Assembly: GCA_009602725.1 (NCBI GenBank)
Contig: WELB01000049.1
Span: 659,833 to 723,832 of the forward strand
Source: Spirogloea muscicola
Taxonomy: Eukaryota > Streptophyta > Zygnematophyceae > Spirogloeales > Spirogloeaceae
Direction of reading: 5' to 3'
DNA length: 64,000 bases
Position numbers and translations under genes: made by a program. Below, in pieces: positions 30,025-61,640 of this stretch. Position 1 is the first letter of the stretch; each line of letters opens with the position of its first letter. The notes beneath the pieces were generated by a model. It was given only the letters and a program-made list of their open reading frames with translations, had not been told where the DNA came from and did no database searches.

Positions 30025-33000
30025 CTAATTGTCTAGCACCTGCTCCCAATCGTCAACTTCAGATTGAGCACTTGTCATTGCAGGAGTTTCTGGCCGAGCA
30101 CTGCTGGTGCCATGGCCGACATCCACTATGGGGAGCGCTGAAAACTGATTCAAGTTCTGGGGTCTGCTGGGCCTGCCAGCTGCCGCAGGGCCATCCCAGG
30201 CCGAAGAGACGGGTGACAATGCGTAGGTACTACCGACCTGGTGCCACGCACCATTGCCTGACTTGGCCTTGGCAATGGCCACACTTCCCTTGTGGCTAGC
30301 GGCGCCCCATGCTGCGCCTGCTGCACTTGGAAGGGGGGAGGGCGGGAGCGGGGGCGGAGCGGCAGAGACGGCGCCCCTGTAGGCAGAGGCCTGTGAAATG
30401 TGGCGTATGGCAGTTGCCGCTCGCGCCGGATGCTGGAAGACGGCCAGCGCTGACCGGTCAGTGAGCCAGACGACCTCGCACTCACCTGAGAAGGGCAGCA
30501 ACAAGCTGCCGAGCCCTGTACCGGGATCGAGGTCAAGCAGCGCTGCGACGCACGAGGGATCCATGTCGATGCCAGGCACGTATGGTGGCGCCTGCGAGCA
30601 GCTTGCGCCGCCGTTCGCCACTATCCGGCTGCTCACCAGCGTCCGCGGCGCCTTGGCCTTGCTTGTCGGCACCACAACCACAAAGCGCTTGGGCTCCCGC
30701 CCTGCCGCCTGCGCCACCATGCCCCACCTCACTGCGAGGTGCCGCAGCGCCTCTCGCCGATCGTGCCGCTGCGGTGCAAATACGTGACATACGGGGGGTG
30801 CACTGGAGCTAACGCGACGCCGCGCCGCCTGCGGTGCAAGCAGCCACAGCAGGCGGGCTTCCACAGCGACCACCCACTGCGGCTCCCGCTTGGCAAGGTC
30901 CACAAGCTCCGCTTGCACCACGGCATCGCCTTTCTCCTCCTCTGGCACCGCCAAGTCAAAGCCGCCCCCCGCCGAGATGGCGCCGAATGCCTCCGCAAGC
31001 TGGCGCTTCTTCTCCAGCGCCACACATTCATCGCCGCACGCCAGCTGCCGCCGGCTCAGCGGCACGCGGGCACTGGCGGCCTGGCCGTCGGCGCTGAGCG
31101 GCTGGAGGCTGCCGGGAAGGCCGGCGATGATCAGTGCCTCGGAACTTCGCGACTGGTCACTCTCCTTCCCACCGGCGCCGCAGGGCACCTTGGCACTAAG
31201 GTGGCCGCAGGCGCAGGAGATGGCGACCTGTATTGGGCACCGAACCTCAGGGCAGGGTGACTTCAGATGGCATGTGGCAAGGCACCGGTGCTGGCAGTCC
31301 CGCCGCGGTGCGCCGCAGGGCTGCCCACAGGGAGGAGGAAGGGTGGAGCCTGCCCTGGCCTGCGCGCTGCCGCTGTCTTCATCAGGCAGCGATGGCGCCA
31401 GCGGCGGGTCGCACGGCGGCAGATGGCAGTCGCGGGCGCAGAAGTGCAAGCCGCACGCCCGCTTGCGGCCGCACTTGGTGGTGCACTTGATGTCCCGAGA
31501 GCCGCAGGGGACGCCGCGCAGCACGACGTGGTCACCGACGCAGGGCTTGGCGACGGGCACGGCGCAGGGGGGGCAGGCGCCAAAGTGGCAGGGGTGCTGC
31601 GGCGGATGCCCGCAGAGCTGGGGCTGCGCACAGGGCCGCGGGCATGACGGCAACGGCGTGCCACAGGGCACGGGCGGCGGGATGGCCGTCGCGCTGCAAG
31701 CGCACGACAGCTCAGTGAAGGACGCTGCCAGACACGGCGGGCAGTGGCCCGGGTGACACAGCGCCTCGCAGATATGCGCACCGCACCGCAACTTCTTGCC
31801 GCAGGGCAGCATGCAGAGGTGTGGATCGAGCTCCACTATGCTGCCGCCGCCGTCCTCGGCTGGAGTCAGCTGGCTCTGCGCCGAGCAGCAGCGCACGCTG
31901 CAGCGGTGCCGCCCACAGCTCTTCTTCTGCCCACAGTTGCGCTCGCACAGGAACAGTAAGGCAGCCGCCCCATCGCTGCCGCCGCCCGAGCTTTTGTCAG
32001 CTGAAAGACGGTCTCCACCTCCGGCCATGGATTGGTAGCAGGGCACGATGCGCGAGCTGGCTCCGCACCGGCAGCGCTCCTCGACAGCAACCTGGCAGGA
32101 AGGGCAGGCCCCGACGTGGCAGCGCAGCCGGCAGGCGTGCGTGCCACAGCGCAAGTCCCTGCCACAGACGCCCCCGCACAGCGGCACTGGGTCCAGGCAC
32201 GACACCCGCTGGCTGCCACTGGGTAGGAGCTCTGCCATGCTGCGCTTGCCGCAGGGGCACGTGGCTACAACTGCGGGCGACCCACTGCACAGCCCACAGC
32301 TGCCGTTGTGGCAGATTCGCTCGCAGGCGTGCTGCCTGCAGTCCAGCAGCTTGCCACATGCCTCGCCGCAGGAAAATACTGGCATGCGCGCAGCTTCAGC
32401 GTCGTCCGCTCCCTCGCCATCATCTCCAGCACGCGGTTCCACGTCGCAGCACCTCATCATTTGCCGCTCCTGCTTCCCGCAAAAACAGCCAGCCGGCAGG
32501 CTTGCAGTGCAGCTGTCACAGGCGCCGTCGTGGCACATGCGTGTGCACCTGTGGCGACCACATCTCAGGAGGCGCCCGCAGGGCTTGCCACAGCTCACAC
32601 CACCCTTCTGCTGATCCGAGCACCGCTGCACAATCTCCAGCTTGCCGCAATGGCACGCCTGCAATTCCAAGGTTGCATATAACATGAGCACAGGCGACAG
32701 ATTGAAAGACACGACCTGGACAATTATGAACATACTGGTGGACTCCTACATAGTAGCACAAATCCTTATGTGTACCACTTAGGTCTGAATCCTGCAACAA
32801 CCTGTGTGGACATGAATCCACTTACGCACCACCCACTTTTCAGTGGGTGAACAGACAGTCACCAGCCATCATACAAGCAACATATGCAGGTGAGATAGAC
32901 ACCACAGAAGCTACATGTATATCCACAAGGTAGACAAGTCACAGGTGCCAAGGACTGTAGGCAGCAGCCTGCAAGCAAGAAAATGCATCAACGGTTGTGC

Positions 33001-36045: not shown

Positions 36046-41255
<5,210 letters not shown>

Positions 41256-42329: not shown

Positions 42330-44160
42330 AAGTGGTGAGCTCGTCAGATGGGGGCGGGGCTGTGAATGGCTTGGCCAGCCGAGGAAAGGAGTGGACAAGG
42401 TCCCGGAGGGCCGAAAGGCGCCAAAACGTAAACAGAGGCTGTAGACGGAGGGCTTAGGGTTTAGCACTACAAGAAACAGCGCTTCCATATTGACTGGTGG
42501 CTGTGAGAGGCAAGCCCAAAAGAGTGGGCAAGGTCTAAAAGGCGCTAGAAGAAATTGCTCGCCTTTAGAGAAGAGGGGCTGGCAAAAAGAAAAAAGCCAG
42601 CCCAAAAATGGACAAAATCCAAAAAGCCAAAAAAGGTGCCGGAAGAAAGAAGGGTTCGCCCATTGAGGGTAGGGGCTGGAAAAGCCAGGCCAAGGCCAAA
42701 AAGATTGAACAAAATGCGAAGCGGGCCAGGGGAAGCGCTAAGAAACAAAACACAAGAAGAAACAAGCTACGTAACACTCAGTAATGCGCGCAGGCCGTGC
42801 TATGGCCGCCGCCTCTGGGTCTCGGCGGAGTGGCTCTTTCCCTGCAGCCACTTCTGCAGCGAGCTACTCAGACCTGATGTTGCTCACTCGTGGGTACTGA
42901 GCTCCCTCTCCATCGTTTCTGTGTTCTTTAGTGTTTTGTAGTGTAGTCCTTTTTCCGGCTCCTCTTTCTTTGGCTTTGGACATTGTCCATTCTTTTTTGG
43001 GCAGGCTTTGCCAGCCCCTCTTCTCTATGGGCTCTCACAGCCCTTGCCCCCATCGGGAGAGCCACTTCTTCTTCTATGGGCGCGCACTTCTTCTGCTAAG
43101 CAGCCTAAAGGAATTCCTACAAAACTAGACAGCGCTCAAACGAGTAGTTTGAGAACCCGTAACTGTCCTGTATAATCTCCCTCACGATATGGTCTTCCGT
43201 CTACTCCTCGGGCTGCACTGTCGAAATTCATCATGTTGACATATTCGACTTATTTCACAATGCTCAAATCAAGATGCCCACTGGTATTTACAGCCAATCG
43301 CCTTGCAGAAAGCTTCTCTATACGGAAAATTTCGTGTGTTTGAAACAAACGAAGGCCAAATGGCCAAGTACAATGGCAAGCACATCTTAAGAGAAGAGCG
43401 CGCCCATAGAAAAGAGGGGCTGGCTTGGCCAGCCCAAAAGACAATGTCCAAAGCCAAAGCAAGAGGAGCCGGAGAAAGAAGAAGAAGTGGCTCTCCCAAT
43501 GGGGGCAAGGGCTGTGAGAAGCCAGCCCGAAAAGAATTGACAAGGTTCGAAGGGGCCAAACTACGAGCTAAGCAGCGACTGCGGGGCCTGAAGAGGCTAT
43601 GGCAGAACGGGGGAGGATGGACCACTTAGTAGTTACGAGTGAGGAGCCTCACATCCGACAGACTAGCTGCCGGNGCGAGCGACCCGGCGGCGTTGAAGCC
43701 GGGCATCGCCCCTGGCAGACCCGGCCGCCGGTCAATGGCCTGGCGAGCAAGCCGCTGAATGAGATCCAGCCAGCGGCTGCCGAAAGCCCCGTGTACATCC
43801 ATCGCCAGGGCCGCGAATTCATCCCCCACCGGGTGATCAGCGCATTTTCGCTCCTTGCCGCGGGCCGCCTGGCCGACCGCGTGCCCTGCAAACGACGCCG
43901 ATCTGGTGGGGTTGGCGGAGTCGATGCAGTCTGTTGTCACCGCATCAGCGATGATGCGGGGACCGCCGCCGGGAGGGATGGCGACCAGGTCAGGGCGTCG
44001 CGTATGGGGCTGGCCGTCCGCGCCCAGCTGAATGGGCATGATTGAGGAGTTCTCTACCGCAACCTTGAAGCCCGCCTCCGAAAACACCCCCTGCATACCG
44101 TCGCGCAGGAGGTCATGGGAAGCGGTCCGCTCCCCCCCGGTGGGCGCAACATCTTAAGAC
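42330..44160. mobile_element. retroelement island with subfamily C fragment and cassettes
   Basis: Cassettes lie at about 42345, 42490, 42585 and 42665 (minus), about 42975-43075 (plus, two joined types) and 43420-43560 (minus, two types). A plus-strand 3' end with SYSDLMLLTRGY and a stop lies at about 42860-42899. A minus-strand subfamily C coding fragment spans 43676-44150: AGFKVAVENSSIMPIQ, RRPDLVAIPPGGGP, IIADAVTTDC, GKERKCADHP and GSRWLDLIQRL. One undetermined base is at 43674, where the fragment joins an unrelated 3' end (SLSDVRLLTRNY). The segment 43100-43300 is not recognised. Confidence 0.65.
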
Positions 44161-45181
44161 CTACATAACTTACAGTAGATTGAACCGCTCAGTAACCACG
44201 GGTCAAAACAAAACGGGAGGCCAACCGCTGGGCCACGCGGGCTTGGCACGTGGCGTCGCCTGAGATCGCCAGATGTCCTGCCGCCGGCAGGACGTTCCTT
44301 GAGGCTTGAGCTTGCCACGTGTCGCTGTGCCGGGCTTCGGCACCAGGAACCTTACGGGACCGTCATCGTCACCACACTTCTGACTGCTGGCATGGTCAGA
44401 CCAGCGTACTTATCATTATTTATTCTGTAGTGTATTCGCCACTCCCAATGCCCAGATCGAATCTTCAGGTCCTCAAATCATCACTTACGTGGAAAAGGAA
44501 GAGATCGAGCAGAAACAAACAGGAGATGGACTCGGAAGCAGCCATCTCACCTGCAAATGCACCTCATCATTTTCATTCTGAAGAAAGCGTACTAGCTCAC
44601 TGGACTAGCTAAATCGCACCGGCAATGAAACGGGGCTCAGGTGAAAGGACGGGACATTTGTCTTCTTGTACATCGTGGAACGTCCCTGTACGTCAGTAAA
44701 AGTTATGAAAACAACAGCTGGATTACTCAGGGGTGAGAATGCTGATTTGAGTAGCAATCAGTCTTGTGTAAACATGATCGCTGGGTGCCATTCAAGTGTT
44801 CCTGTGTGTGGTCAATCTGCGCAGCCCCAGTCTGCGCCGTCAAATGTCAAGCATTTGATGGAGCTGAGTGAACACCTTGTAGGAAACCCAATGAATTGGC
44901 TTCTATCATTAGCCATATTCCTACTTACATACCTCAAGCACGAGCTACAAGGAAAGAATGCTCTTGCAAGGAGCCTGCGCTTCATGGCACGTCAGAATCT
45001 TTACAATCTGTTCTGCCTTTCACAGACGTCGCCACTCTTGGAAAAGCTTCTGCCTGCATAATGGATGCAGTGGCTGCATGACCAGCCTAAAAGAAGAGGT
45101 GATAAGGCCGGAGGGGAAGCCCTGAAGCTTGCTTGCCATGTTGGGGTTGCTGCTGCAGATCAAGCCGCGCTACCCTAGAAA
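44161..45181. other. 3' flank of the fusion enzyme gene; no gene seen
   Basis: The first 50 bases still look like a retroelement end (the minus strand carries GACCCGTGGTTACTGAGC). Beyond that there are only short ORFs, plus a small hairpin (GTCCTGCC / GGCAGGAC) near 44275. Confidence 0.5.
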
Positions 45182-48100
45182 CTAATCCTCCAATGTCGCC
45201 TTGCCACTAGAGCCAAACATCCGCAACTTCTCCCTCACGACTTCCTGCGCATCCCATGAAACGCTGGTGAGCAACACCTTCAACACGAGCTTCACGAGCA
45301 TCGTGTCTCAACAATTTGAGTCTGCCTGCTTGCCTCAAACCTCAATAACTGACAGTCTGAAGCTATTTCTGAGCAACAAGCACGCAACCTGAGGATGAGT
45401 CTTACGTAGCCATCGGCTGTACATATTTAAGTACTCCCACCACTCCTAGCCAACTGCATCCTTATTCTACAGTACATCGACTTGTTCTGCTCTGATTGAC
45501 ATGGACACTTTGTCTACAAGTAATTGCCACACCATTAAAAGCCCTGCTCATATACATAGCCTCAAGAAGTAGTGATGGCATGTGACATGCAAGTTGCTCT
45601 GTGCTGCTTCTTCCGAAGAAGCAGCACAAAGCCATGTCCTCTACAGATCAAATCCTTACCTCCATAGCTGTGCGGGCCAAGCCCATGGCATCAAGGAGAT
45701 CCTTATGATTGCCTTGCAGGGCTGCCACATAGGCAGCTCTCAACTCAGTGTTGACATTAAACTTCCTCACGCCATACTTTATGCACTCCTGAACACACAA
45801 GCAACAGTGCAGTGTCTTATGCCTACAAGTTACGGCATTCTAGAGAATGATGAAAAAGCTACGCAGTATGACTTCAGAAGCACTTATGTGCTCACCTGCA
45901 ACCATGCACTGTAGTTAGCAGCATCAGTTTAAAGGCACGCATCATTGTTGGATCTGTCGCACGCTTTGGCGAGGCATCCTGTAACATGACCCCGAAACGC
46001 TTACCTTAACAAGATCGGCAGGAAGGCCTGAAGCACCATGTAGGACAAGGAATGCATGATGACGACTGGTTATGGCCTGAACGGCCTGCAGACGAAAGAG
46101 AACAGAGGTCAGGCCATGTGAACGACGCCAAATGGTTGACTTCGTGTTGCCAGGCAGTACTAATTGCTGCTGCAGCAGAGTGCAACTGCAGCAGCAAAAG
46201 CTTAATACAGGAGCATAGTGGATGACATACCTTCAATCGTTCAATGTCAATCTGAGGTCCCTGCGGAGGGTACTTGCCGTGAATGTTTCCAATGCAGACG
46301 GCTAAGGCATCAACTTGCGTTGTAGTCAAGAAGTCCTCAGCCTGCAAAAAACATTTTGCTAAGTATAGTGTGACTGATGCCTCATTTACGAATTTCTTGC
46401 ACAATGGCACTCATGCATCTTTCTGCATGCCAGTCATTCAAATATAAGAGATCTCTATGAGTTATCTGTTGGAGTGTTACCTGTTCCGGGTCTGTGAGAC
46501 AGCCCTCATACTCCTCCACGGTCAACCCGTCCTCTGTCCCAGACAGACGTCCCAACTCAGCCTCCACCAGCAGACCTCTTGCATGTGCAGCCTCCACCAA
46601 TCGCTTACTGTACTGGACATTTTTCTCATACTCTAGGCTTGAGCCATCCACCATGACTGAATGGAAGCCCTGAGCAGATGGACAACACACAATCATGAAG
46701 TTTACCAACATGTGTTCAACTAGTGGAACAGCAATGCAACTATCTGTTAAGAACAGCATACTGTCTGTGTGTGCCTTCTATATGTTTGTCCGAAGCTGAT
46801 GAGTAAATCGCTTTTGTACCCCAAGACGATCACATTACAGGCAATGCCTGAGCTGCCTTGACAGAAGAAAGCCTTATGCTCAGTAAGGGTGACTATGGTA
46901 GTACTAGGGCAACACCGTGGTTGGAGTCTAGCTAGCAGAGCTAGCTAGACTCCACTTAGGTGATGGAGGAGTACAATCGTCCAGTCACTTAGAGGTTAAT
47001 GGAAACAACGAGACCGCTTGCATGAGGCGTCGTGATGGTGACTGCTACTTTGGATGCTGGTACCTTGTCGAGGGCAGCCATCACTTCTTCCTCCTTGCTT
47101 GCATGATCCAGATGCACTGCTACTGGGACCTTGTGCAGAAAATAACATCCAAATTGGTCACTCAGCCGAGGATCATTAGTACAGAATAATTGCCAATTAA
47201 GCTTGGCGCTATTTCACACGAACATCAGACGCTTGGCCTTATACTGTTCCTCCTTGTTGTATGCACACGTGACAGAAAATTGCCACAAGAATATGACTCC
47301 ATCCCTGTGAAGAATGCAAAACGCGCAGCCTCGGCAGGCAAATGTGTATTAGATCTTGCAAAAATTGGATCCCACCTGAGAGTACATAGCAGCTGCTGCG
47401 CAGAGTGCCACAAGGGGCTCCCCACCATGCTTTAGGGCACTGGGGTGAATCTGAGATAAATAAGACTAGTGTAATGAGTGTAGTGGCATTAAGATTACTG
47501 TCTTGCAGTCTAATCAAGCGCACAGAGCCTGTAACCCTTGACTATTGGTGTGCTGTCGCATTTCCTGGCAAGTTCGACTCGACCGACCATAAGCATAGTA
47601 GAAGGCTCATCATTAGCAATTGCTGTGATTTCTAGATTGGCGAAAGTGGAAGCATGGGAAGATAGGTTGAGCAAGATGTCAACTTGTATGTGCACACCTG
47701 CAGTATGGCCGGGCTGCACTCAGCCTCAGCAGCAGATACTACCGCCATTGCTCCTTCCAGGTTGTAAACATTGAAAGCTCCCACAGCATAACCCCCCTTC
47801 TCAGCAGCCTGTTCCGAGAAGAATGTACTTGAGCCAGAAGGCGAAGGAATGACGATGGAGGTGGAGATTAAGAATGTCGATCTAGGAAAAAGTAGAAGAG
47901 AGCCAACAGAATTTTCACAAACATTTGAAGGACGCCAGTCCTTACAAGCACAGAGCAAAGGAATATGTTTATCAATCGACTAAATAGTACCTCTAGGATG
48001 GCCCTTGTTGAGGTTGTCGGAAGCAGTGCCCATGTCTTCACAATCATGGCAAGCGCGTCAGCGTCTCCGACATTCCCTGCATGCTCCTCATCTGCTTAGA

Positions 48101-51100
48101 TATAGCTTTTCTTAAACCACTGTGGCATTTATGGCAGCCTCAAGTTGCAGCCATCTATCACCTGTCAAGGACAGCGTTAGCATAATTGGAAGGCCAGCCC
48201 TTGCTGGCTACTAATTACTGTCCACTTTCTTAGCTTGATCTACACCATGTTTAATTTGATAGCTCTCTCGTTTAATTTACAGAGGCACGGACCTGGGAAA
48301 ACAATGTAGGGTACTCCCACATGTCGGCTGCCAGGCCCCAGTTGCCACAGTGGCACTCCTGACGCTGCCTGGCCGACAACCTCAGCCCTCCTTGCTTCCA
48401 AAGCCTTGACTGCAATGTCTGATGATGTTATTCCACCCTGCACAGACGTCCTTGAATGGCCAACTGAATGACATGGCATGCGCCAGCAATAGTATGCAGA
48501 TGAGCTTTTAACCGCTGTTCCTGCCACATCATCTGGTCTCCAGTTGCAAATCAGGTAGTATGATCATTTTGCAGATCATAGCAGCAATCTGGTTACCTTG
48601 GCTAATATGTATCGTGGCCTGGTGCTTATGCTGCTCACAATCTCCACCAGGCCCGAGCTCACTTTGGATCCGATCTCCAGGCTGGCATCGCCAGCTGTAG
48701 CCCCGGCAACCAACAATCGTCAGCTATGGCATAGGCATACTGGGTAAGCGGTAATGTGCCATTCTTCTTTGGAACACTCATCGGATGGTAAAAAACATCT
48801 ATTTGAGAAAGCGACTGTATAATCTCGACCGTAAATGGCCACATTGTCAGGACCACCAATGCTTCAATGTGAAGTTCGCGATGTTCGCGTCCAGCAGATG
48901 CACCGTGGAGATGAGATGGAAGAGTAAGCATGCAGAATCTCCTAAGCCTGCACAGGAGGAGGGCTTCGTGGCAAACATCTGCCAGTGATGAGCTCCCTGG
49001 ATGTCACAACAAGAACATCCTTCCCCTCCCTGATTGCTCCATCTGCCACCTCCGAAGCTCGCCGGATCTCTGCCTTTCTAGGGGCGTCGCCGTCAGTAGC
49101 AAGGCTCCGTGCATTCACCTGAATTCAGAAAGACAGAATTAGTTGCTCAGAATTATTAAGCTGTTGCCTTTGCCTTGGAGAGCTTACGCACAGCAGTACT
49201 GCAAAATTTAGCTACACACCAGCTGCACAGACTGGCAGTCAGAAGATCAGTCCACACGGATCAAGGCTCGGCCTCAACCGTAATAGTGGTGAGGATGCCG
49301 CCACAGTGCTTCTGAAGCTGCTGAACCTGTCATGCAAGTGAACTACCAAGCTGAAGTCAGTTTCCAAAGCTATAAACTCCTAGCAATTCTGGAGAGCACA
49401 ATTTCAGCAACCAAACAAGGCATAAACAGAGCTAGTAAATACAGCAGAAAAGCCTGCTGTACTGAAAGGCAGCTTCCAGCTGCAAGGCTGTCAATCTTGC
49501 CAAGGAATGTGCATGAGAATTGCCAGGGACATGGGTCAAGGCCAACCTGGCCCGTGGTTTTAGGGACGTAAGATCCAACTACTATAAGGGCACCATTCCT
49601 GGATCTGACGTTCAGGTCTCTTGGTGTCAAAGGTGGCCTCGTTATGATGCCTAAGCGAGCAGATACAAATGAAGCTGCAGTCCTACACAAGAAGCTCATG
49701 CCCTTCCGCTCGGCCTGCAACACCATGTGTATGACAATCTTTCATTGAGTGTCCTGTATAATGGAAGGACTCACAGTACTTGGAGTGTTTGTATCCGGAC
49801 TGACAGCTCCAAATTCAAGTGAATGGCAGAATAATGATTGGTTGGTGCATAGTCATAAAAGCTGCACTGAGAAAGCTGAAGTGCGGCAGACATCAACATA
49901 CGTATACGTGCAGTAGAGAGGCAGTGCAGCTGAGCTCACCTGAAGCATCCCTGCTGAGAATACCCTCATGTCCTTGTCACTTGCAGCATTGACGATGCAG
50001 GTGCCTCCCTGCAGACGTGCGTGCTAGACGGCTTTCATGGAGCTTCAGGCGACTTGATCGATCAATACTCAGGAGCTAAATAGTTGTATGGGTTGCTTGC
50101 CTTGAGACCAAGCGAAGACTTCACAAAGACAAGTGGGTAAGTATCCCTATTGAGAGGTATATATAGCGCCAGCTTTATCCCATTTCCTCACCTTCTTCAC
50201 AGCGCACAGCTGCTCACAAATTGCTGTTGGGCCTCCTCTGCGGATGGTCTCTATGGAGATGGAGGCAACTTCATTGGCTGCTACTGCACCTTGTGTCTTC
50301 TCTTCCACCCACTGATCAGAGTAGTGGGTAGCACATGTCGTCATCAGTGGTCAAGTTGGGCAGCAAGATGCAACATGGCAATTTTTCCAAAACTTTCCTA
50401 TAGAGACTGATAACTGGGCTGCATTTGGCTGGCCTCTTGCTCCTGCAATTTGCTGCAGCTCATTGTAAAGGATGGTTGTCATGACAAGGCTCGGCACCTG
50501 TCGGAGATTTGAACTTTTGTACCCGAATGCAGCGTCCTTGGCAAACTCTGTCTGACCAGCTGGCACTAATCTGGCACATATGGAGGTCAAGTGTATCCTT
50601 CAAGCCCTGATCTCAGCACCTTCAGCTACCAATAATCAACTACTTTCGACTAGCCAACGACAAGAGGCCTCTTCATGTATGTAGATGTGTAGTGGGCTAG
50701 TATTAGAAGCTAGCAAGCTGTATGATCTGAAGCTAGCAGACATCAACGTCCAAATAAGTGTTGTGCACGAGATTAGTGTGCCCTCAGCTGCCAAGTCGTA
50801 CTGCTGAGCACCATAGCTATTCAAGGCAACCTCATCCACGACAACTTCCATTGAGGAGTAGCAGCTCACAACCTGTCCCCATCTGCAACGTAATGTACAT
50901 CGTTGATGGTATATCTCCCACCCTGAAGGAAGAAAGGGCAGATGATGGTGGCATCAACAGTACCCACAACTGATGCTGCTGCTTCAGCCTCCTGCCAAAG
51001 ATCAGAAAGAAACGCCACTGCTCAGGCCTCAGATTCCTGCAGGCTCGGCAGAGCTGTAGTCCATTTATGATGTAACTGGGAAGCCTTCGTCCCGAGAGTG

Positions 51101-54100
51101 CAGGTCGTAATCTGTGGACCTGGGGATAATGACCTCTAAGTGTTGAGTCTCCTCGGAGGACTATGGTGAAGCCTTTTCCTTCGGCAGCCTCCTTCACGTT
51201 CCTGCAGATCTCTTGTGTCAACTCAAAAGCCTGCACGACGACGGCCCGAGTGCAAGCTGAGCTTTTCTGTGAGTCGGAGCATGCACTTTGAGAAAGGCAT
51301 GCAGAGTGGTGGATGGGACGGGCAAGCTCCGCATGCCTGCTTAGTGGGAAGAGATCTGGAATTTGTGAGGATGAAGAAGCATGCCGGCTTCTTCTCCATC
51401 TCACATCTCAGTGCCTCAACACTCCTGCAAATGAAGTGCTGCTCATAGTGAGTTGTTGCACTTCTTTAGTTGGTTTTTAAGGCTTTCTAATAAGCTCCAA
51501 TATCGAGCTGAGTGAGTTGGACAGGAACAGGCAGGTGGGCAAAGCTCAACTCACCACTCCATTAGAACAGAAACCCCGTGTACTGTCTGAGTGCCAGTGG
51601 GGTCGTCATCAAGGACAACCAATGTCTTGGCTTGGCCTCCCTCCTCTATTTCATGAATCTCTGCTGCTGGATCTGAGGGCCACTCTGGTGGCAGGCTCTG
51701 TAGAGCAGACTCCTTGGAGAGCACCTCTTCTTGAGTGTTGCCATCAAGCTGGTCTGGAGCAGGAAGGTCTTGCTGCTGACGGTCTGGCAATGGGGAACCA
51801 GCAGCTGTAGCATCCTTGGCAACCACCGGAGGCAAGCTTGCTTGTAAGGCACTTGACTGGTTGTCAGGACTTGCGGCCCTTGAGATGCTGACACCCGTTA
51901 GGATCTCAAAGACCTTCTCATGCACAACAAACACACAATGGAGGTCATGTAAGTGCCTCGTATAAGATCGTATGTGAGCATCCCAACTGGCATGTCCCCT
52001 CTGTCGAGGGTATGATATGAGGGCCTTGAAGCTACGGCTATGGGCTGGCTATCCAGGTCAGTGTCTCATACAAGGCCTACCTTTGCCACGGCAGCATCAT
52101 CCTCCCTACCGAATCCAGCAGCGGAAGCTGCCATTGACAGTCACACACGGTGTCACTTCCTCCACCACTGCTCTAGCCATGCATCTACATGTGTCTTATA
52201 ATGAGATAGAAATGTATGTATCTGGAAAGCTTGGTCACATCACTTCCTTGACATGCAATGGAAAGTTGCACAAACATCTGATCTGTGATCACCAACAGGC
52301 ACAAACCATCCTCACCAAACAGGAATTGCTGATGAGCAGCAGCAGCAAGAGGAAGAGGCATCCTCTGGCCTTTGGCTTCTCCCAACACAATACCCTACTC
52401 AGGACGTGCATCAAGCAGCCATGCGCATTTAGTAGGCACATACAAGGAGCGCACTACACCAAGCAAGTTACACCAGCATACTGTTTAACGGTCATTGAGC
52501 TGAACTTTGACAATGCTCATGCTGAAGTGACAGAAGCCAATCTTCATTCGAGGCAGCTAAATCGTGTGACAATTTAGCCCTTGCTTTTGTTGCGGGGGCA
52601 CACTGCAGCCACTATCAGTGCCGGTTCTTTGGAACATATGACAACTGATCATCCCAATACTATTTTCTTTCACAGGTCTGAAGTTCCTGCAGCATGTGAG
52701 GACTGACAAGAGGCTCATGCAGGGGGTTTTGGGTCTACCAGGTCCTTCACAAAAATGTCAACTGCTGATCGGGGGGAGTAGTCATTGTCTAACATATGTG
52801 GCACTCTGTTGTTGTACATCCTGTCACAATCCAGCACTTGTTGAGGACAATCTGGACCTCTTTGTAGTCACAGCACTGGGAAAGAGGACTTCCACCTCAT
52901 ACCACTGACAAACACTATGCTCGAGGGTAGAGGAGGTCATGATCATGAATCCCTTTCGGTTTTGCCATCCATTGAGTGAGATAGGCTTGATGTCAAGAGG
53001 ACTGAGGACCCATACTTACCATGAGGCGCCAGCAGCAGAGCTGATGACCTTGAATAGCAGCCGGGTGTCCAGCCCTGCTCTTGCGCCCAGGGCCATGGCT
53101 TCTGCAGCAACTGCGATGTGGACGCCTGCCAGCAGCTGGTTTACCATCTTGACTGCACTGCACACTCAGGAGGAAATATCAACATTGACATTTTCACACC
53201 GGGCCAAGCCAAGTCGCCCAAGCACATGTTCATGTCTGAAAGGCGATGAAAATGCTCATAAGCATGATGCTGTTGGTACCTTCCAGCCCCTGGGCCCCCA
53301 GGTATGATAAAAAGATCTTTGCTCAAAGCTGCCAGTCACAGGAAAAGTCGTCACCTGAGACCTATAATGTAACATGTTATGTGGCATAGGACCACGTCAC
53401 AAGGTAATCTACAAGTATTACCTTTCAGTTAACCTACAAGTATTACCTGCAAAATATGTTCACGTACTACCAACCTAACATGTAATTGCTACAATTGCAA
53501 AGCCACTGTTGAAGTACCTTTGAGTATGGGACTTGCAGCTCTCATTGCGGCATCTGACCCAGCTGCCATGATCTGCATGCCATTACATACACTGTGCCTC
53601 TCTGACGGGCCACGATGATGACAGGCAGAGATGGGCGGGCAGCGACGAACAACTTTGTTGTCCAAGAAAATTGACTTCAGCTGCTGAGGACCAGGGTGCA
53701 GGACCAGAAAATCCGTGCTACCTACACGACAGAAAGATATCTATTGCGTGAAGATGCTGAGCGCACATCTGTAAACACCTGAGAGGCATTAAATGGTGTG
53801 AGCATACAGTGCGAGCAACTATTGTGAAGGAGCACATAGAGCAGTGGAAACAGTATACCGTCAGGGTGCCATCAGCTGCACGTGCGGTACCGCCAGAGAC
53901 TGGACTATCAATCAGCATAAGACCGCGTTGCTCATCTGGGAGCACAAGGACAATTAGCAATCACACATGTAATCAGATCAGAAGACGTTAAATTGCTACA
54001 GCTATCTGGACTGCTGTTGTGTATACCAATGGCTAGCATGAGAGCGAGTGCTCCATTGGCTCCCAGTGCTCGCAGGCTGCTTACCATTAAGCTTCCTCTC

Positions 54101-57100
54101 TAGAGACTTGACATAGTCTGGAGAAACTGTGGAGCAAAGCATCAGAACTGCTCCTTCCTCCATGGCTGGCAGATGGAACAAATATGAATAAGTAACACAT
54201 CCTCACCATGCTGATGGCGATTATCTATGGACTCTCTACACATCTTGCAGCACGGCGTCTAATGGCCCACTCTGAGAGAGCTCTCCTTGCTGTAAGATGA
54301 TGGCAAGAAATTGCAGAGGCACATCTTCGATTTTGTGAGTAATGAGTAAGTGATACTGCATCACAGCATTGACCATCAATCTGAATAGCTGAGCCTGAAA
54401 AACCTGACACATTGTTCATACCTGGTGCCACCCCTTCGGGGCCCCGCAGAACTTGCTCGACCTGGTCCTCGCTGGTCACCATGATGATTACCACTTGAGC
54501 GCCTAAGTACAACCACAACAACACAATATTTACCACTTGGGCGCCTAATTACCACCACAACAACACATGTCCCCAAGGTTTCTAGAAGGGTTTCACAATT
54601 GGGCCTATGGTTTCATGTATGGCCCTGCCTGCCTGCCACTCTGATAGGCAACGTATGCACCAGTCCTTTTGTGTCATACTGAACATCACCAGAGCCAGAG
54701 GGGTAATGATGGAGTTAACACTGACCTTTCACTGTCATTGCTAAGTTGCTGGCCGCCTCTCCCCCTAAAGCTTGGAACTTATCTAGAGCAGGCTTGAAGA
54801 CCTGCACAACTCAAGGTCACCTCTTGTTACCTGTGCTGTCATGAACTCTCAGTGACCACAGCATGTTCAACATCGCGCACTATCACCAGCACAAGGGGAG
54901 GCTGGGTACATATCAAGAAGCACAACTGATAAGTGAAGTGAAGGGCCTTGTCAGTAATGTGGGTCACTGCCAGGTTGACTGCCTTACTTGCCCAGCTGAT
55001 TGACTAGCAGCTGGATGCTGAAGAGCCTAAGTTACCTACATCGAAGCCTCGCGTCCTCAGGCCAGCCTTAAGCAGTGCAGATGCCATGCCAATGCCCATG
55101 GCTCCCAGGCCTATGAAAGCCACCACATACTCCACATCTGAAGTACAGCCAGCCAGAGCTTCACTCTGATGCAAGTATTCAGCAACCTGGCTCTTTGACC
55201 CTGCACTGGTGGACACGTTGACTCCACCGGCCTTCTCCCAGATCTGCACATGCTTCATTTGTTTAGCTCTGCTTCCATGAGCCTTCTGTGCAAGATTGGC
55301 TTGGGACTTTGATGTATCCTGCTTGCCTTGTCAGGTTCTTTACTGTGAGCACAAGATACTTTTACACAAGTCTTGATGGTTACTTATGACAATACCCACC
55401 TTGACCACAGCAGCATCATCCTCTTTACCCAAGCCAGCTGCAGATGCTGTAATATAAGAAAAATCAATGCGTATTCCTCAGGACTACTACTTGCTGTAAG
55501 CTGAGGCTGTAGCACATGGAAATGCCCTTGGTAGCTTGAGTATGGCATTGGTGACCATACATCTGGAAAGACTGGATGGGAGCTGCGTGACATGCAATGC
55601 AGGCCATCACAAAGTCCAACTGACCACAGTTGCATAAGTAGTTGCAAATCTACATGCAAATATCTGTATCTCACCAAATAAGAATTGCTGGAGGGCTGTG
55701 GACGCAAGCGGGACTGGGAACTTCAGCAATCGCGCTTCCTCAGCCACGATGGCCTACATGTCCACCATGTGACACTCGTGCACTTTAGGCAGTTGTGTAG
55801 TAAGCGTAAGCCAAGAGGGGCTCTTATTGTACGTGCAAGTCACTGCCAGGAGCTGGCAACAATGTCATGAAGGATATACCCAAACATTGCTTATTCTGGT
55901 GCAAAGGCAGCAGCTGCAATGCTTACTAGGTCCTTGACAAAGATATCCAAGGCTGATTTGGGACTGAAATCATTGTCCAACATGTGCGGAACTCTGTTTT
56001 GAAACATCCTGCATATTCAGCGGTTAACAGTGTCCAGTTCCTGACAGTTAACAACATGTTATTGCAAAATGCAGGTATGACTGCAGCATGCAGAAACATA
56101 TACTTCATTGTGCAGCAACAGCCATGCTGGCAGGCTTCAAAAAGCCATTGTAAGTAATTGTAGAAATTGTTCATTGTTGATAACTTTCAGCAGCATCGCC
56201 TTAGAGAGACAGAAAGAGTCTCTGACACTTGATTGGTCTTACCAGGAGGAGCCTGCAGCTGAGCTGATGATGTGGAAGAGGAGTCGGGTATCAAGGCCTG
56301 TCTTGGCTCCTAGAGCCATGGCCTCAGCAGCAGTGGCAATATGTACTCCTGCCAGCAGCTGATTGACCATCTTCACTGCACTGCAGTTTTCAGCAAACAA
56401 GGCAGCATACTCACAAATGCGACATGTAAGCCTTGCTGCCAGACTCAGGCTCAAGACAACGTTCCAGCATATGGTGCAAAGAATGATCGTTGAGCTGACC
56501 AACACGGCTCCCCAGGACCTCTTAATGAGAGAGGAGATATATGTACGGATGTGGAATGTTGGTCCTGCCTGTAGTGACGTGCTGTGAGCAATTACCATGT
56601 CAGCTTATAAGACTATAAGTTTTTGGCAGATTGAGGGGGTTCAAGCTTACCTGCCGTAGCCTACGCCGCCAGGGATGGTGTAGAGATTTTCACTCAAGGC
56701 TGGACACACAAAGGCATGTCTGATTATTGTTAGCTTGCAATCACAATGTAAAAGTGTTGTAGCAATACATGGCTTTCATACATCTGCTGAAATTTTTAGC
56801 AGATGCCAAAAGCACGATATCATTGAGCTCTACTGCACTGCACCTCAACAACCTACTGAGTCTGCAAGTCAACCTGGACTCAAGTATCCTTCTGCTAAGA
56901 AAAGCACAGAGCAAAGGTTTACGGAAAGATGTGATACTTGTGACATAGCACCGGGCTTCAGTATCTCTTACCTTCGAGTATTGGGCCTGCTCTTTGAAGG
57001 GCCTCCTCAGATCCTGCACCCATGATCTGCACGTCTATGACATTGTCTGCTTGTCAGGCTTGTCACTTTGCACACGGAGCACAGACTGCACAACGAAGGA

Positions 57101-58631
57101 GTAACGCTTCCACACCTCTACATGATGATGTGATTGTGGTTACATACATGTACTGAGAGAAAGTGGCTCATAATATCATGAAGATAATTGTGAAGCTAGA
57201 CTAATGCAGCACTCTGTAAAACACCGTGACCTACAGTCAGCGCCCCTTCCGCAGCCTTTGCGACCCCGCCAGAGACTGGGGCATCCACCAATTCGATATC
57301 CCTGCCGCCACCTGATTGATATCAGTGACTGCAACTCAGATCCCTGTGCTGATAGTGAGAGTAGAAATGATTTCTGGCGGTTCTGACTAGCTTGTAAGAT
57401 CCTTCCCTACGGCGGATGCATTGTGACCTGGTCGTAAAGGTGGGTAAATAGCTTCTAGCTTGCGTAGACTGCAGACTCCTGAATTGTTTTGTGACTTGCT
57501 AATCGGCGTCTGCACTACTGGGATTGATGCTTGGAACTGAGTGGACCTTGGAGGCGCTTGACCAAGGAGCGCACAAAATCCGGTGGCACAGTTGAGCAGA
57601 CAATGACCACTGACTTGTCCTCAAGCCCTGCGTGAGTCAGTTGGTGTGCGCGCACGTGTAAAGCAAAATGTCAGGCCAGGCCCAAGGGGCCAGCATGAAT
57701 TGGCCACCAGGTCTTATGTACTGGCTCAATACATAGCAGACGACTTCAAGCACAACGGCAGATAGATGGATGATCCGTAGCAGCGCTGCCAGCTTGTAGC
57801 CGCCGTATGCCAAAAGCAGCAGCAATTGGTGAATATGGTCAGCGCCCGGCTTACACTAGCTTAATTGCAGGGCTGGGGAGAGTAACATTCCACTGATTGC
57901 AGTAATACCTGAAGCCGCTCCGTTGTCGCCAAACAGTGCCTCCGCCACCTGAACGGCATTGGTCACCATGACAACAAGTGCAGAGACACCTGCTCCAAAG
58001 TGCAAGATACTTAAGCTTCTTACAGTTGCCTAACCAACTCTGGTGCACTTATCTTCTGAACAAGTTCAATGTCCTTACTGCCTTCTTCTGCAAGCAGTCA
58101 GTGCGACCGCCTGATTGAGCAGATGTTGAGCAGCAAGCAGAAAGTTGGAGGACCTGCGGAGACAGCTGCTGGTGTGGCCGCAGCACAGCCTCCACTGGCT
58201 TCCAGGCGGTCCATGGAGGGCTTGTATACCTGCTTGCCCGGTAACGGAGCAGCAGCAGGCAGGCACTGATTAAGTCAGGAATTTGCCGCAGGTTCACGAA
58301 GCAGGAGTCAATTCACCAAATTGAAGCAGAACCATAAGATGCACTGCTAACACAAGCAAGATATAAGTCTCCAGCTGATAGAGGTTCTCAGCACTGGCTG
58401 GATACCAAAACAAGCCCAGCAGAACTGGGGCACCACAATTGGGCAATAGGCTGGCCCAATTGTGCAAGGTGACGGAGGAGCTCTGCGCTGTTCGTGCAGG
58501 CAGGCAAGGGGGCTGACATCGAAGCCGACGACGGTGAAGCCTCGGCGGACAAGGCAGGCGGCCATGCCGCCGCCCATGGCTCCCAGGCCGATGAAGCCGA
58601 CGGGCCCACCGGGAGCGCCCGCTGCCGCCAT
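45182..58631 (-). CDS. four-part fusion: two HIBADH-like dehydrogenases, acid-sugar kinase, class II aldolase
   Basis: About 43 small exons give about 1,430 residues in the order known for the plant ketose-bisphosphate aldolase class-II family protein: NAD-binding module 1, module 2, DUF1537/four-carbon acid-sugar kinase, aldolase. The start is ATG 58631 (MAAAGAPGGPVGFIGLGAMG); the stop is at 45182 after GSSGKATLED. Family knowledge suggests oxidation of a sugar acid, phosphorylation and cleavage of the product to a C3 phosphate, all on one chain; the real substrate is unknown. Each dehydrogenase keeps a GLGAMG nucleotide loop and the catalytic-lysine motif AVKMVNQ. The aldolase keeps HLDHA, VEAELGRLSGTED, GNIHGKYP and HGASGLP. 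No transit peptide is obvious, so it is probably cytosolic. One intron (51336) needs a GC donor; the others examined have GT-AG borders. Confidence 0.9.
45600..45628. repeat. perfect 13-bp hairpin in the last intron of the fusion gene
   Basis: TGTGCTGCTTCTT and its reverse complement flank CCG. It lies about 32 bases past the donor of the last intron (donor at 45659). Confidence 0.8.
46922..46954. repeat. perfect 15-bp hairpin in an aldolase-module intron
   Basis: TGGAGTCTAGCTAGC and its exact reverse complement are separated by AGA. It lies in the intron between the exons holding HLDHA and GFHSVMVDG. Confidence 0.8.
47991..51913 (-). other. module 3 of the fusion: DUF1537 / four-carbon acid-sugar kinase
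   Basis: The first exon (51913-51555) closes module 2 (VFEILTGVSIS), adds a Gln/Pro-rich linker and enters the kinase at TLVVLDDDPTGTQTVHGV. Later exons carry FFILTNSRSLP, FTIVLRGDSTLRGHYP, DATIICPFFLQGGRYT, VHYVADGD, LVPAGQTEFAKDAAFGY, GGTCIVNAASDKDM and FLCRTAASFVSARLG. The end has VVGSYVPKTT, then the nucleotide-binding domain (PRYILAKGGITSSD, GVPYIVFPGNVGDADAL). Relatives phosphorylate threonate- or erythronate-type acids or their keto forms. Confidence 0.88.
52081..55243 (-). other. module 2 of the fusion: second HIBADH-like dehydrogenase
   Basis: Exons are 55243-55040, 54801-54726, 54502-54422, 54165-54085, 53935-53859, 53572-53518, 53328-53280, 53157-53020, 52820-52739, 52394-52316 and 52127-52081. 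The first exon finishes module 1's tail (IWEKAGGVNVS), adds a linker and opens module 2 with AFIGLGAMGIGMA. The next ten exons equal those of module 1 in length and phase. Motifs include VIIMVTSEDQ, LMLCSTVSPDYV, LIDSPVSGGTARAADG, AVKMVNQLLAGVHIA and HQQFLF. Confidence 0.9.
54486..54569 (-). repeat. 42-bp tandem duplication covering a splice acceptor
   Basis: Two adjacent diverged copies each contain the acceptor-plus-exon start (TTAG then GCGC and CAAGTGGTAA, minus strand) and a GTTGTTGTGG stretch. The acceptors lie before 54502 and before 54544, exactly 42 bases apart. Confidence 0.75.
55400..58631 (-). other. module 1 of the fusion: HIBADH-like dehydrogenase
   Basis: Exons are 58631-58518, 58229-58154, 57989-57909, 57627-57547, 57311-57235, 57026-56972, 56699-56651, 56380-56243, 56008-55927, 55753-55675 and 55446-55400. 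They encode the Rossmann opening VGFIGLGAMGGGMA and the segments VVMVTNAVQ, VIVCSTVPPDFV, LVDAPVSGGVAKAAEG, GGVGYGSAVKMVNQ and ALQQFLF. The last nine residues of this set include KEDDAAVVK. This is the complete 3-hydroxyisobutyrate-dehydrogenase fold including the helical C-terminal domain. Confidence 0.9.
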
Positions 58632-58904: not shown

Positions 58905-61640
58905 CCGCGGGGTGAGTGGCAAAGCCAGCCCAAAAAAGAATGGACAATGTCCAAATCCCAAGAAAAAGGTGCCGAAGAAGGACTACACTACAAAACACGA
59001 GATGATGCAGAGGGAAGCTCAGAACCCGCGAGTGAGATTGAGGCAAGGCTACTTGCCAGCCCCTCTTCTCTTTCCCGGCTGAGATGGGCTTGCCAGCTGC
59101 TTATCTGTCGTTGTTGCGACGACGAGTTTCGGCCTGTTTGCAGCGTGCTCAGGCTAATGCTTTCCACCAGAAAGCTGGGCGAGCTCTAGTTGGTGGCAGA
59201 AGGGCTTCGTATCTGCCATCTAGAATCCAGCCATCGGTTAGCGACCTTTATGTTTTGACCCGTGGTTACTGAGCGGGTCAATCTACTGTAGCTTATGTCG
59301 GTCTTAAGATGTGCTTGCCTCTGTACTTGGCCATTTGGCCTTCGTTTGTTTCAAATACACGATATTCCTCTTCTCTATAGGCGAGCACTTCCTTCCTAGA
59401 CTTGGAAGCCGTTACACTAGAAACCCAGTCTGGAAACCCAGCCATTGGTGTACGGCCACACTTCCAGCGAGCTTCGCTGAGCATCCCTCTGCATTATTAT
59501 TGGTGTGTAGTTTCTTTTACCGGGCACCGTTTGTGGCCTTTGAGGCCGTTTGAGGCCTGCGGACATTGTCCATTCTTTTCTGGGCTTGCTTTGCTAGCCC
59601 CTCTTCATGCCACTCCAGCAATGGGCTGACGGTCTCCACGCTCGTCGCGTCGACCTTGTGGCCACCCCACCAGCAGGCGGGCCACGTCTTCTCCTGGACG
59701 TGGTGACTACTGACTCATATGACCGCTCACACCCAACCCAGTTTGCCACCAAGGCTGGGTATGCGGTAGCCTGCGCCGCTCGGGCCAAGGAGCTCAAATA
59801 CGCAGATCACCTGCAAGAAGACGAGTTCTTCCCGCTCGCCATCGACACGCACGGGGCGCTGGGCGCTCGGCGGCTCAAGCTGCTAAACCAGCTCTCACGC
59901 CACGCCATTGTCCGCCGCTTCCATGGGGAGCCGGTGGACTCCCATGCAGGGTGCTAGCGCAGGTGTACCGCATGCGCTTGGCCGTCTCGCTGCAGAGGTC
60001 TATGGCCCGCGCGCTGCCCTGCGTGCAGGCAGAGCCCTCGCTGCTGCCTCTGGCTCTGGCCAGGGGACCCGCTTCCAGGAACCCAGTCTCTCTGACCTGA
60101 GGCTGCTTAGTAGGCGTTACTGAGTGCTTCGTAGCTGCTTCGTTTCTTCTTTGTGCTTGTTGTTCTTCGTAATTTCCCCAGAGCCAGAGGCAGCAGCGAG
60201 GGCTCTGCCGGCACGCAGGTGCAGCGCGCGGGCCATAGAAAGAAGTGCGCTCCCATAGAGAAGAGGGGCTGGCAAAGCCAGCCCAAAAAAGAAAGGACAA
60301 TGTCCAAAGCCAAAGAAAGAGGAGCCGGAAAGAGGACTACACTACAAAACAATGCAGAACACAGAGACGATGCAGAGGGAAGCTCAGTACCCACGAGTGA
60401 GCAACATCAGGTCTGAGGCCATAGACCTCTGCAGCGAGACGGCCAAGCGCATCGGTACACCTGCGCTAGCGACCCGGCTGCAGGGGCACTGCCGGCCCTT
60501 CTCCCCCTTCTCCTCCTTCTCCCCCTTCTTCTTTGGTGGCCGAACAGAAGAAGTTGCACAAGTACAAGGACCACCCAGCGGGTGATATCTTTTACCACCT
60601 GGCCATGGACATCCATGGGTGTTACGGGGGTCGGTGGTCCTCGTTACTTTCGCTGCTGGCATCTCAAGCTGACCAGCGGCGCCGGGAACAGGGTGCAGCC
60701 CTTCCCGGTGGCTCGGTGCCTTTGGGTCTTGTGTCCTGCTACCGTATGCGTTTGTCTATGTCGCTACAGCGTTCCCAAGCGCTTGCTTTGCATCGCCGCG
60801 CTGGTCGTGCCCTTGCAGCAGCCTCTGGCTTGCGCAGCGGGGTTGCTCTTCCTCCCCTCAGCTCATCTGACTTCCTACTGCTGACACGGGGTTACTAAGA
60901 GCGCCCTGGCTGTCTAGCCTGTGGCTCCGTCATGATCACCTGTATGCATCTGGCTGGCTTTCACAGCCGCTCTTTTAATATCAGCAGCCGCTTCCTTTTT
61001 CTCCCGACATTGTCCATTCTTTTTTGGGCCGGCTTTGCCAGCCCCTCTTCTCTATGGGCGCGCACTTCTCTCCCCCCCCCCCGGCCATCCCTCCTCCTAC
61101 CTTTGCTGCTGCCCTACTCCATTGGGAGAGCCACTTCTTCTAGCAGCCTCAGAAGCTGCTAGATGCTAGCTGCTACGTCAGAAGATGTGCTTGGCCGTTG
61201 TACTTGGCCATTTTGGCCTTCGATTGTTTCAAACGCACGAACATTTTCTTCGCGGCCCATACTCGCGTGTTAGCTGGTGGGACAAGGGCTTGTCAATCTA
61301 AGAGCAAGCGCGGCCAGATTAACTGGTGGCTGGGAGAGGCCAGCCCAAAAGAATGGACAAGGTCTGAAGGAGTCGGAGTGCTAAGGACTGAGACAGCAGT
61401 AAGAGTAGATGCAAGTCTGAGTAGCTAGCAGGCGGATCAATCTGCCGTCCGGTATTCGGGCATCAGTTTTGCGGGCTCTATGTGCTGACTCGTCGTTACT
61501 GAGCTGGTCAGCTTAGCAGCAGATGATGTAAATGTGTCACTGCGGTGGCCTCTGTACTTGGCCACTCAAGGCCCTCCACCGCTCGATCCACACCCCATTC
61601 CTCGCGACCTGGCTGGCTTTCACAGCCGCTTATTTAACGA
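58905..61640. mobile_element. retroelement island, subfamilies A, B, D and E 3' ends with cassettes
   Basis: Plus-strand fragments are B (59084-59274, MGLPAAYLSLLRRRVS to VSDLYVLTRGY), A (59607-60123, RVDLVATPPAGGP, LLLDVVTTD to LSDLRLLSRRY), D (60533-60898, KLHKYKDHPAGDIFYHLAMD to SSDFLLLTRGY) and E (about 61435-61502, ending YVLTRRY). A minus-strand mosaic lies at 60245-60470. Cassettes are at about 58915, 59565, 60258, 60954, 61010, 61330 and 61607. Tails occur at 59310-59365 and 61185-61240. Fragment A begins directly after a cassette at 59606. No reverse transcriptase is present. Confidence 0.65.

Follow-up and report, generated by a model that had tools for sequence, protein, structure and literature searches.

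L-Threonate is a breakdown product of ascorbate. In Arabidopsis, knockouts of the LTD gene (L-threonate metabolizing domains, AT1G18270) no longer show detectable L-threonate dehydrogenase activity and contain raised levels of L-threonate, and the LTD protein of land plants combines its domains in the order LtnD-LtnD-OtnK-OtnC in one polypeptide, according to the study in which the name LTD was introduced (PMC12540250). As far as that text goes, LTD is present in all land plants examined and reported absent from five named green algae, a distribution on which a hypothesis on rising ascorbate was built (PMC12540250, 2025). The available portions of three further reports give the gene 41 introns in wheat, as many as 41 among the B. 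napus genes, and in potato 42 exons (PMC5470051, PMC6888112, PMC11057440), with protein lengths of 1379 amino acids in potato and 1380 and 1382 amino acids in B. napus (PMC6888112, PMC11057440). Bacterial LtnD, in contrast, is a separate intron-free protein. Here we describe a stretch of 64,000 nucleotides from the alga Spirogloea muscicola (contig WELB01000049.1, positions 659,833 to 723,832; hereafter the window), which carries a gene of the LTD type on its minus strand. Spirogloea is an alga close to land plants; the five green algae named in the LTD study we take to be chlorophytes.

We consider it highly probable (roughly 0.87) that a complete LTD gene of the AT1G18270 type lies in the window, and that within this gene an intron-rich dehydrogenase module was duplicated in tandem and its structure was then preserved for a long time. 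Evidence from introns that tandem domain duplicates have in common is familiar; what is new is LTD in an alga. The analysis adds the identity of the gene, its algal presence, and the conclusion that eleven introns of the module are older than the internal duplication.

Architecture of the LTD-type gene

The gene spans positions 45182 to 58631 (minus strand) and consists of 43 coding exons encoding 1432 amino acids: two LtnD modules, an OtnK-like kinase and a class II aldolase. The reading frame is open across all joins, and the lengths of all 43 exons are kept in two further copies of the gene elsewhere in the genome (C80 and C48, described below). The predicted splice borders define 42 introns, 41 of the GT-AG and one of the GC-AG type. 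The initial annotation was limited to the dehydrogenase modules, while the gene in fact runs on into the kinase and aldolase domains. Downstream of the modules, a linker and the kinase part (SBD_N and NBD_C domains) occupy 13 exons (47991–51913; PF07005, 197.8 bits; PF17042, 123.4 bits), and the OtnC-like aldolase with the stop codon occupies a further eight (45182–47808; PF01116, 319.7 bits). The order of Pfam domains in the single polypeptide is thus NAD_binding_2 and NAD_binding_11, both present twice, followed by SBD_N, NBD_C and F_bP_aldolase.

Against the NCBIfam model for L-threonate dehydrogenase (NF043037, equivalog cut-off 350 bits) the two modules score 362.7 and 366.1 bits, and the best match for module 2 in the PDB is 3g0o. 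As in bacterial LtnD, the glycine-rich and lysine motifs, whose roles we assume from general knowledge of such enzymes, are retained in both modules; the lysine of the AVKMVNQ segment is presumably the catalytic one of the beta-HAD family. The gene differs from its bacterial counterparts in that two copies are fused and have eleven introns in common.

The algal gene resembles land-plant LTD in domain order and in length (1432 versus 1379–1382 amino acids, the latter from the available portions of the reports cited above). It differs in being algal and in having 42 introns, compared with 41 in the wheat genes; the potato gene has 42 exons. LTD is characterized as one gene with about 41 introns, and the agreement concerns counts, not positions. 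The similar intron counts in the alga and in flowering plants suggest that positions may be shared as well. The reactions of the algal enzyme are most likely those known from Arabidopsis and bacteria. By analogy, L-threonate would be oxidized by the two NAD-dependent modules, and the product would be phosphorylated and then cleaved to dihydroxyacetone phosphate.

The presence of an intact LTD gene in this alga, close to land plants, contrasts with the absence from five green algae reported in PMC12540250. A literature search retrieved no paper combining L-threonate and Zygnematophyceae, and among 12 papers indexed under At1g18270 no title concerned algae. A paper from 2025 that deals with ascorbate pathways and plant terrestrialization did not mention LTD and referred to threonate once, in its reference list. 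No intron positions were given in the accessible text of papers on cacti in which an AT1G18270 intron serves as a marker.

Intron positions shared by the two dehydrogenase modules

Identical position and phase of introns in tandem domain duplicates show that the introns predate the duplication, and in this gene the agreement is complete. Module 1 begins in exon 1 (58518–58631), which contains the start codon and the first stretch of the module, and continues through exons 2–11 (58229–58154, 57989–57909, 57627–57547, 57311–57235, 57026–56972, 56699–56651, 56380–56243, 56008–55927, 55753–55675 and 55446–55400, all minus strand). A junction exon (55040–55243) then carries the tail of module 1, a linker and the first exon of module 2, which proceeds through its own exons 2–11 (54801–54726, 54502–54422, 54165–54085, 53935–53859, 53572–53518, 53328–53280, 53157–53020, 52820–52739, 52394–52316 and 52127–52081). 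In both modules these ten exons measure 76, 81, 81, 77, 55, 49, 138, 82, 79 and 47 nucleotides. Each of the 20 is flanked by AG and GT, and the lengths are kept in the two further copies. The two tandem modules with ten consecutive exons of the same length and phase, as proposed in the initial annotation, were thus verified exon by exon.

The agreement extends beyond the ten-exon run at both ends. Exon 1 and the junction exon both stop after the residues GFD in phase 0, which bears out the earlier statement that the GFD exon ends at the same codon in the two modules, and the exon 3' of each 47-nucleotide exon starts in phase 0 at a homologous codon. The flanking introns on both sides of the run therefore match too, so that eleven of eleven introns are common in position and phase, and the modules indeed share every intron position. 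A spliced aligner guided by a protein profile, run with no information on the borders, recovered all eleven positions in both modules, together with one spurious split in a module 2 intron; this aligner is partly dependent on the gene itself, because its splice-site weights were trained on the LTD-type gene and its protein profile contained both modules. Eleven introns can be placed in 766 sites in 1.2e24 ways. What sets this pair apart from other tandem domain duplicates with common introns is the density of eleven introns in 285 codons, with none lost or shifted in the modules or in the three genomic copies.

The intron sequences themselves have diverged. Among 121 pairs of module 1 and module 2 introns compared, similarity lay within chance: the best match (E 0.018) joined non-homologous introns, and the homologous intron 10 pair contained a 12-base match (E 0.024). 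Since the tail of module 1 and the head of module 2 lie in one exon (55243–55040), either the join itself took place within exons or an intron has disappeared at this point.

The initial annotation had also pointed to the absence of any exon indel in 765 nucleotides. The alignment of the modules is indeed gapless, but this part of the argument carries little weight, as bacterial pairs at similar identity are often gapless as well (37 of 46 pairs at 60–65% identity, 43 of 69 at 55–60% and 6 of 15 at 65–70%; rows of 270 amino acids or more, the pairs being non-independent). The lack of indels is ordinary for the family and needs no special cause.

Phylogeny and age of the module pair

To place the modules, relatives were collected from a scan of genome contigs (best 80 of 519); a scan of viral contigs found no relative. 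The main tree contained 66 of the 80 bacterial rows (those of at least 240 amino acids) and six algal rows. In it, modules 1 and 2 form one clade with a Shimodaira-Hasegawa-like approximate likelihood ratio test (SH-aLRT) value of 98, nested in a branch with 32 bacterial rows (SH-aLRT 100). In segment trees, built from 36 bacterial rows and two of the three algal copies, sister support was 90 for exons 1–6, 100 for exons 7–8, 83 for exons 9–11, 97 when exon 8 was left out and 99 for all exons. The module trees called for by the initial annotation, with bacterial outgroups only, thus return the two modules as sisters with or without the 138-nucleotide exon.

Most of the bacterial neighbours checked score as L-threonate dehydrogenases. 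Ten of the 80 bacterial proteins, read from the start of the match, were compared with NF043037: among nine from the module branch, six exceed the cut-off and the other three stay under it (333.6, 296.8 and 315.9 bits) with the same model still scoring best, and one protein from outside the branch had no match to the model at E 1e-60.

Modules 1 and 2 are identical at 156 of 255 residues. At synonymous sites the proportion of differences (pS) is 0.70, corresponding to about 2 synonymous substitutions per site (dS) overall, and fourfold sites differ at 67 of 99 positions, as against 0.75 expected at saturation. Per exon, pS between the modules is 0.57–0.87 in the window copy and 0.49–0.94 in C80 and C48; the nonsynonymous divergence (dN) in the window copy ranges from 0.08 to 0.77. 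Synonymous sites between the modules are near saturation. With dS of about 2 between modules and 0.05–0.24 between genomic copies, the internal duplication precedes the separation of the three copies by a wide margin.

Exon 3 (57909–57989 and 54422–54502) stands out by its divergence between the modules, with an identity of 0.37 that 118 of 119 bacterial pairs equal or surpass; the NAD-binding parts are perhaps evolving differently.

These observations are consistent with the following course of events. A dehydrogenase gene whose nearest relatives among those compared are bacterial L-threonate dehydrogenases would have had eleven introns in a core of 285 codons; a tandem duplication of this segment within the gene would have followed, its join lying in a single exon, and both modules would have retained all their splice positions even as the introns, the synonymous sites and a large part of the NAD-binding region changed. 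Given that the neighbours of the modules are bacterial L-threonate dehydrogenases, in a tree whose eukaryotic rows are all from this alga, the introns were probably gained after entry of the gene into the lineage and before its duplication. We lean, with some reserve, towards the fuller scenario in which the dehydrogenase was of bacterial origin, acquired its eleven introns and was duplicated only afterwards, so that dedicated catabolism of threonate, an ascorbate waste product, would be older than land plants, contrary to the published green-algal absence. The duplicated module would serve as an internal clock, in which introns from before the duplication are separable from later gains. If each module is traced in land plants, the duplication could be dated and the stability of the eleven introns gauged over very long times.

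Alternative explanations for the shared introns and for exons 7 and 8

Several points weigh against the duplication of an intron-rich module within an LTD gene, or against parts of it. The NF043037 cut-off is exceeded by 13–16 bits only, and recombinant Arabidopsis LtnD1 was inactive according to the accessible text of PMC12540250. Bacteria are the sole outgroup in the tree, and we infer both the bacterial origin and the timing of intron gain from sequence comparison; preservation of the structure beyond this genome would follow solely from published intron counts. Further points of this kind, one from the C27 gene and others from exons 7 and 8, belong to the competing explanations considered here. 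One of these traces the introns back to the ancestor of eukaryotic beta-HAD genes, from which both modules would have kept them, so that a later gain would be unnecessary; another holds that introns were gained independently at the same sites in modules already duplicated. Both were compared with three other beta-HAD genes modelled in the genome, which are likewise intron-rich: family A (C244/C209/C325) supplied eight introns, taken for the most part from the models of C209 and C325 because that of C244 differs at some; family B (C3/C24/C100) supplied seven, and the gene on C27, whose stretch covers profile positions 3–223, six. Introns at the profile ends, (3,2), (278,1) and (282–283), and splits found in single models were dropped, none of them at module positions, and a gene on C44 resembling 6-phosphogluconate dehydrogenase was left out of the count. 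None of the 21 introns coincided exactly with a module intron. By hand count, five of the 21 lie within 6 nucleotides of one, where about 3.5 are expected, and the C27 gene, named by resemblance a 3-hydroxyisobutyrate dehydrogenase, contributes four of its six introns to this class with no identical position (about one expected; chance of about 1 in 100, both hand estimates). Slipped positions of ancestral introns could account for these near-matches, yet the lack of any exact match and the grouping of the modules with bacterial L-threonate dehydrogenases, away from other bacterial beta-HADs, make common ancestry of the intron set improbable, and an inherited beta-HAD intron set was rejected as a candidate on the basis of these genes. 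The same near-matches might mean that some sites attract introns, as independent gain would require; with eleven exact agreements of position and phase among 1.2e24 placements, and no exact position in common with the other three genes, this explanation has next to nothing to recommend it. The earlier proposal that an already intron-rich module was duplicated and its structure long preserved is upheld by the sister clade, the near-saturated synonymous sites, the unrelated intron sequences and the absence of the positions elsewhere (0 of 21).

Concerted evolution is a third explanation: gene conversion between the modules may have kept parts of them alike after the duplication, chiefly exons 7 and 8. 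The initial annotation described the 138-nucleotide exon (exon 8; 56243–56380 in module 1, 53020–53157 in module 2) as nearly identical in protein and the other exons as much less so. The first half of this description stands, with 40 of 46 residues the same, while the second was too general, since exon 9 (22 of 27) and exon 11 (13 of 16) are nearly as conserved. Its further assertion, that recent gene conversion does not explain the pattern, agrees with our data: fourfold sites differ at 18 of 27 positions in exon 8 and at 49 of 72 elsewhere, and the longest identical runs between the modules, of 14–15 nucleotides, lie outside exon 8 and within the range of shuffled sequences (380–952 of 2000). 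Recent conversion is supported by neither synonymous divergence nor identical runs, and the introns of the two modules are alike no more than by chance. An older event has more in its favour. In bacterial pairs that are 55–67% identical overall (44 sequences; rows of at least 270 amino acids, pairs not independent), identity over exon 8 averages 0.65, and none of 119 pairs reaches the 0.87 seen between the modules. Residues common to both modules and rare in 32 bacterial rows (shared-rare residues) stand to differing residues as 5:12 in exons 7–8 and 8:98 elsewhere (Fisher p 0.018), a ratio as extreme as that in one of 183 bacterial control pairs. The path between the modules is 0.27 for exons 7–8, against at least 1.0 to bacteria, unlike exons 1–6 (1.25 against at least 1.32) and exons 9–11 (0.48 against at least 0.47). 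Four of the five shared-rare residues of exons 7–8 are located in exon 7. Exon 8 alone has one among 40 shared residues (p 0.55), so that most of its identity consists of retained family residues. Very old homogenization of exons 7–8 is possible, and gene conversion as the general cause of the likeness seems to us unlikely; the likelier and simplest reading of exon 8 is that its segment, which carries the presumed catalytic lysine, is strongly constrained and has retained family residues.

In exon 7 of both modules (56651–56699 and 53280–53328) we observed the residues IPGG, which are rare in the 32 bacterial relatives and drive the enrichment in exons 7–8.

Further copies of the gene in the genome

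The genome searched comprises 153 Mb in 471 contigs, with the window copy on the contig designated C49. Two further LTD-type copies, on C80 and C48, show 85% and 84% DNA identity to it over the region searched. In both, all 22 module exons have the same length and AG/GT borders, and the other 21 exons are of the same length as well. Over the three pairwise comparisons of copies, 5275 of 5544 exon bases are identical (269 differ) with no indels, as compared with 11653 of 13693 aligned bases (85%) and 176 gap runs in 21 introns. The donor of the GC-AG intron in the kinase part (51231–51336, minus strand; GCATGC) begins with GCAT in the window copy, C80 and C48. The stop codon is absent from the aligned place in C48, and the end of the C48 protein therefore differs.

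SBD_N was found in at least three places in the genome, which are the three LTD copies; genome counts of domain matches given here are lower bounds. In the available part of a published account, a genome triplication is reported for Spirogloea muscicola (PMC7994812), and the genome looks triplicated in our analysis. C80 and C48 are closer to one another (dS 0.05–0.09) than to the window copy (0.10–0.24), and between genomic copies the dS of module 2 is about twice that of module 1.

Other features of the window and of the genome

The flanks of the gene (58917–60417 and 42546–44231) are linked by ten short repeat matches, five inverted and five direct, the longest of which is inverted and has 95% identity over 166 bp; these may be remains of mobile elements. 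Elsewhere in the window, the minus strand contains an open reading frame of 902 codons with NFXL1 RRM-like and NF-X1 zinc finger domains (30025–32733) and another (36046–36927) that encodes a cation-transporting ATPase C-terminal domain.

Matches to the GRAS domain numbered 92 at the level of exons in the genome and none in 14 prokaryote controls, and no member of the rbcL family was found in the assembly. Taken with the light-harvesting fragments described next and the three LTD copies, the GRAS matches point to a zygnematophyte, probably S. muscicola. An Lhca fragment scored 268 bits to an Lhca4, 258 to 247 bits to further entries, and then 185, about 177 and about 162 bits. We take the entries at 258 to 247 bits to be from seed plants, and those at 185, about 177 and about 162 bits from Ostreococcus, a moss and Chlamydomonas, respectively; given the moss value, the order of scores partly reflects which Lhca each species has. 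An LHCII fragment scored 338 bits to the top group, 328 bits to the following one and up to 316 bits thereafter, a small margin, with entries presumably from moss, spruce and Chlamydomonas, respectively. A polyprotein entry (9vfj), matching in two stretches, had a higher score.

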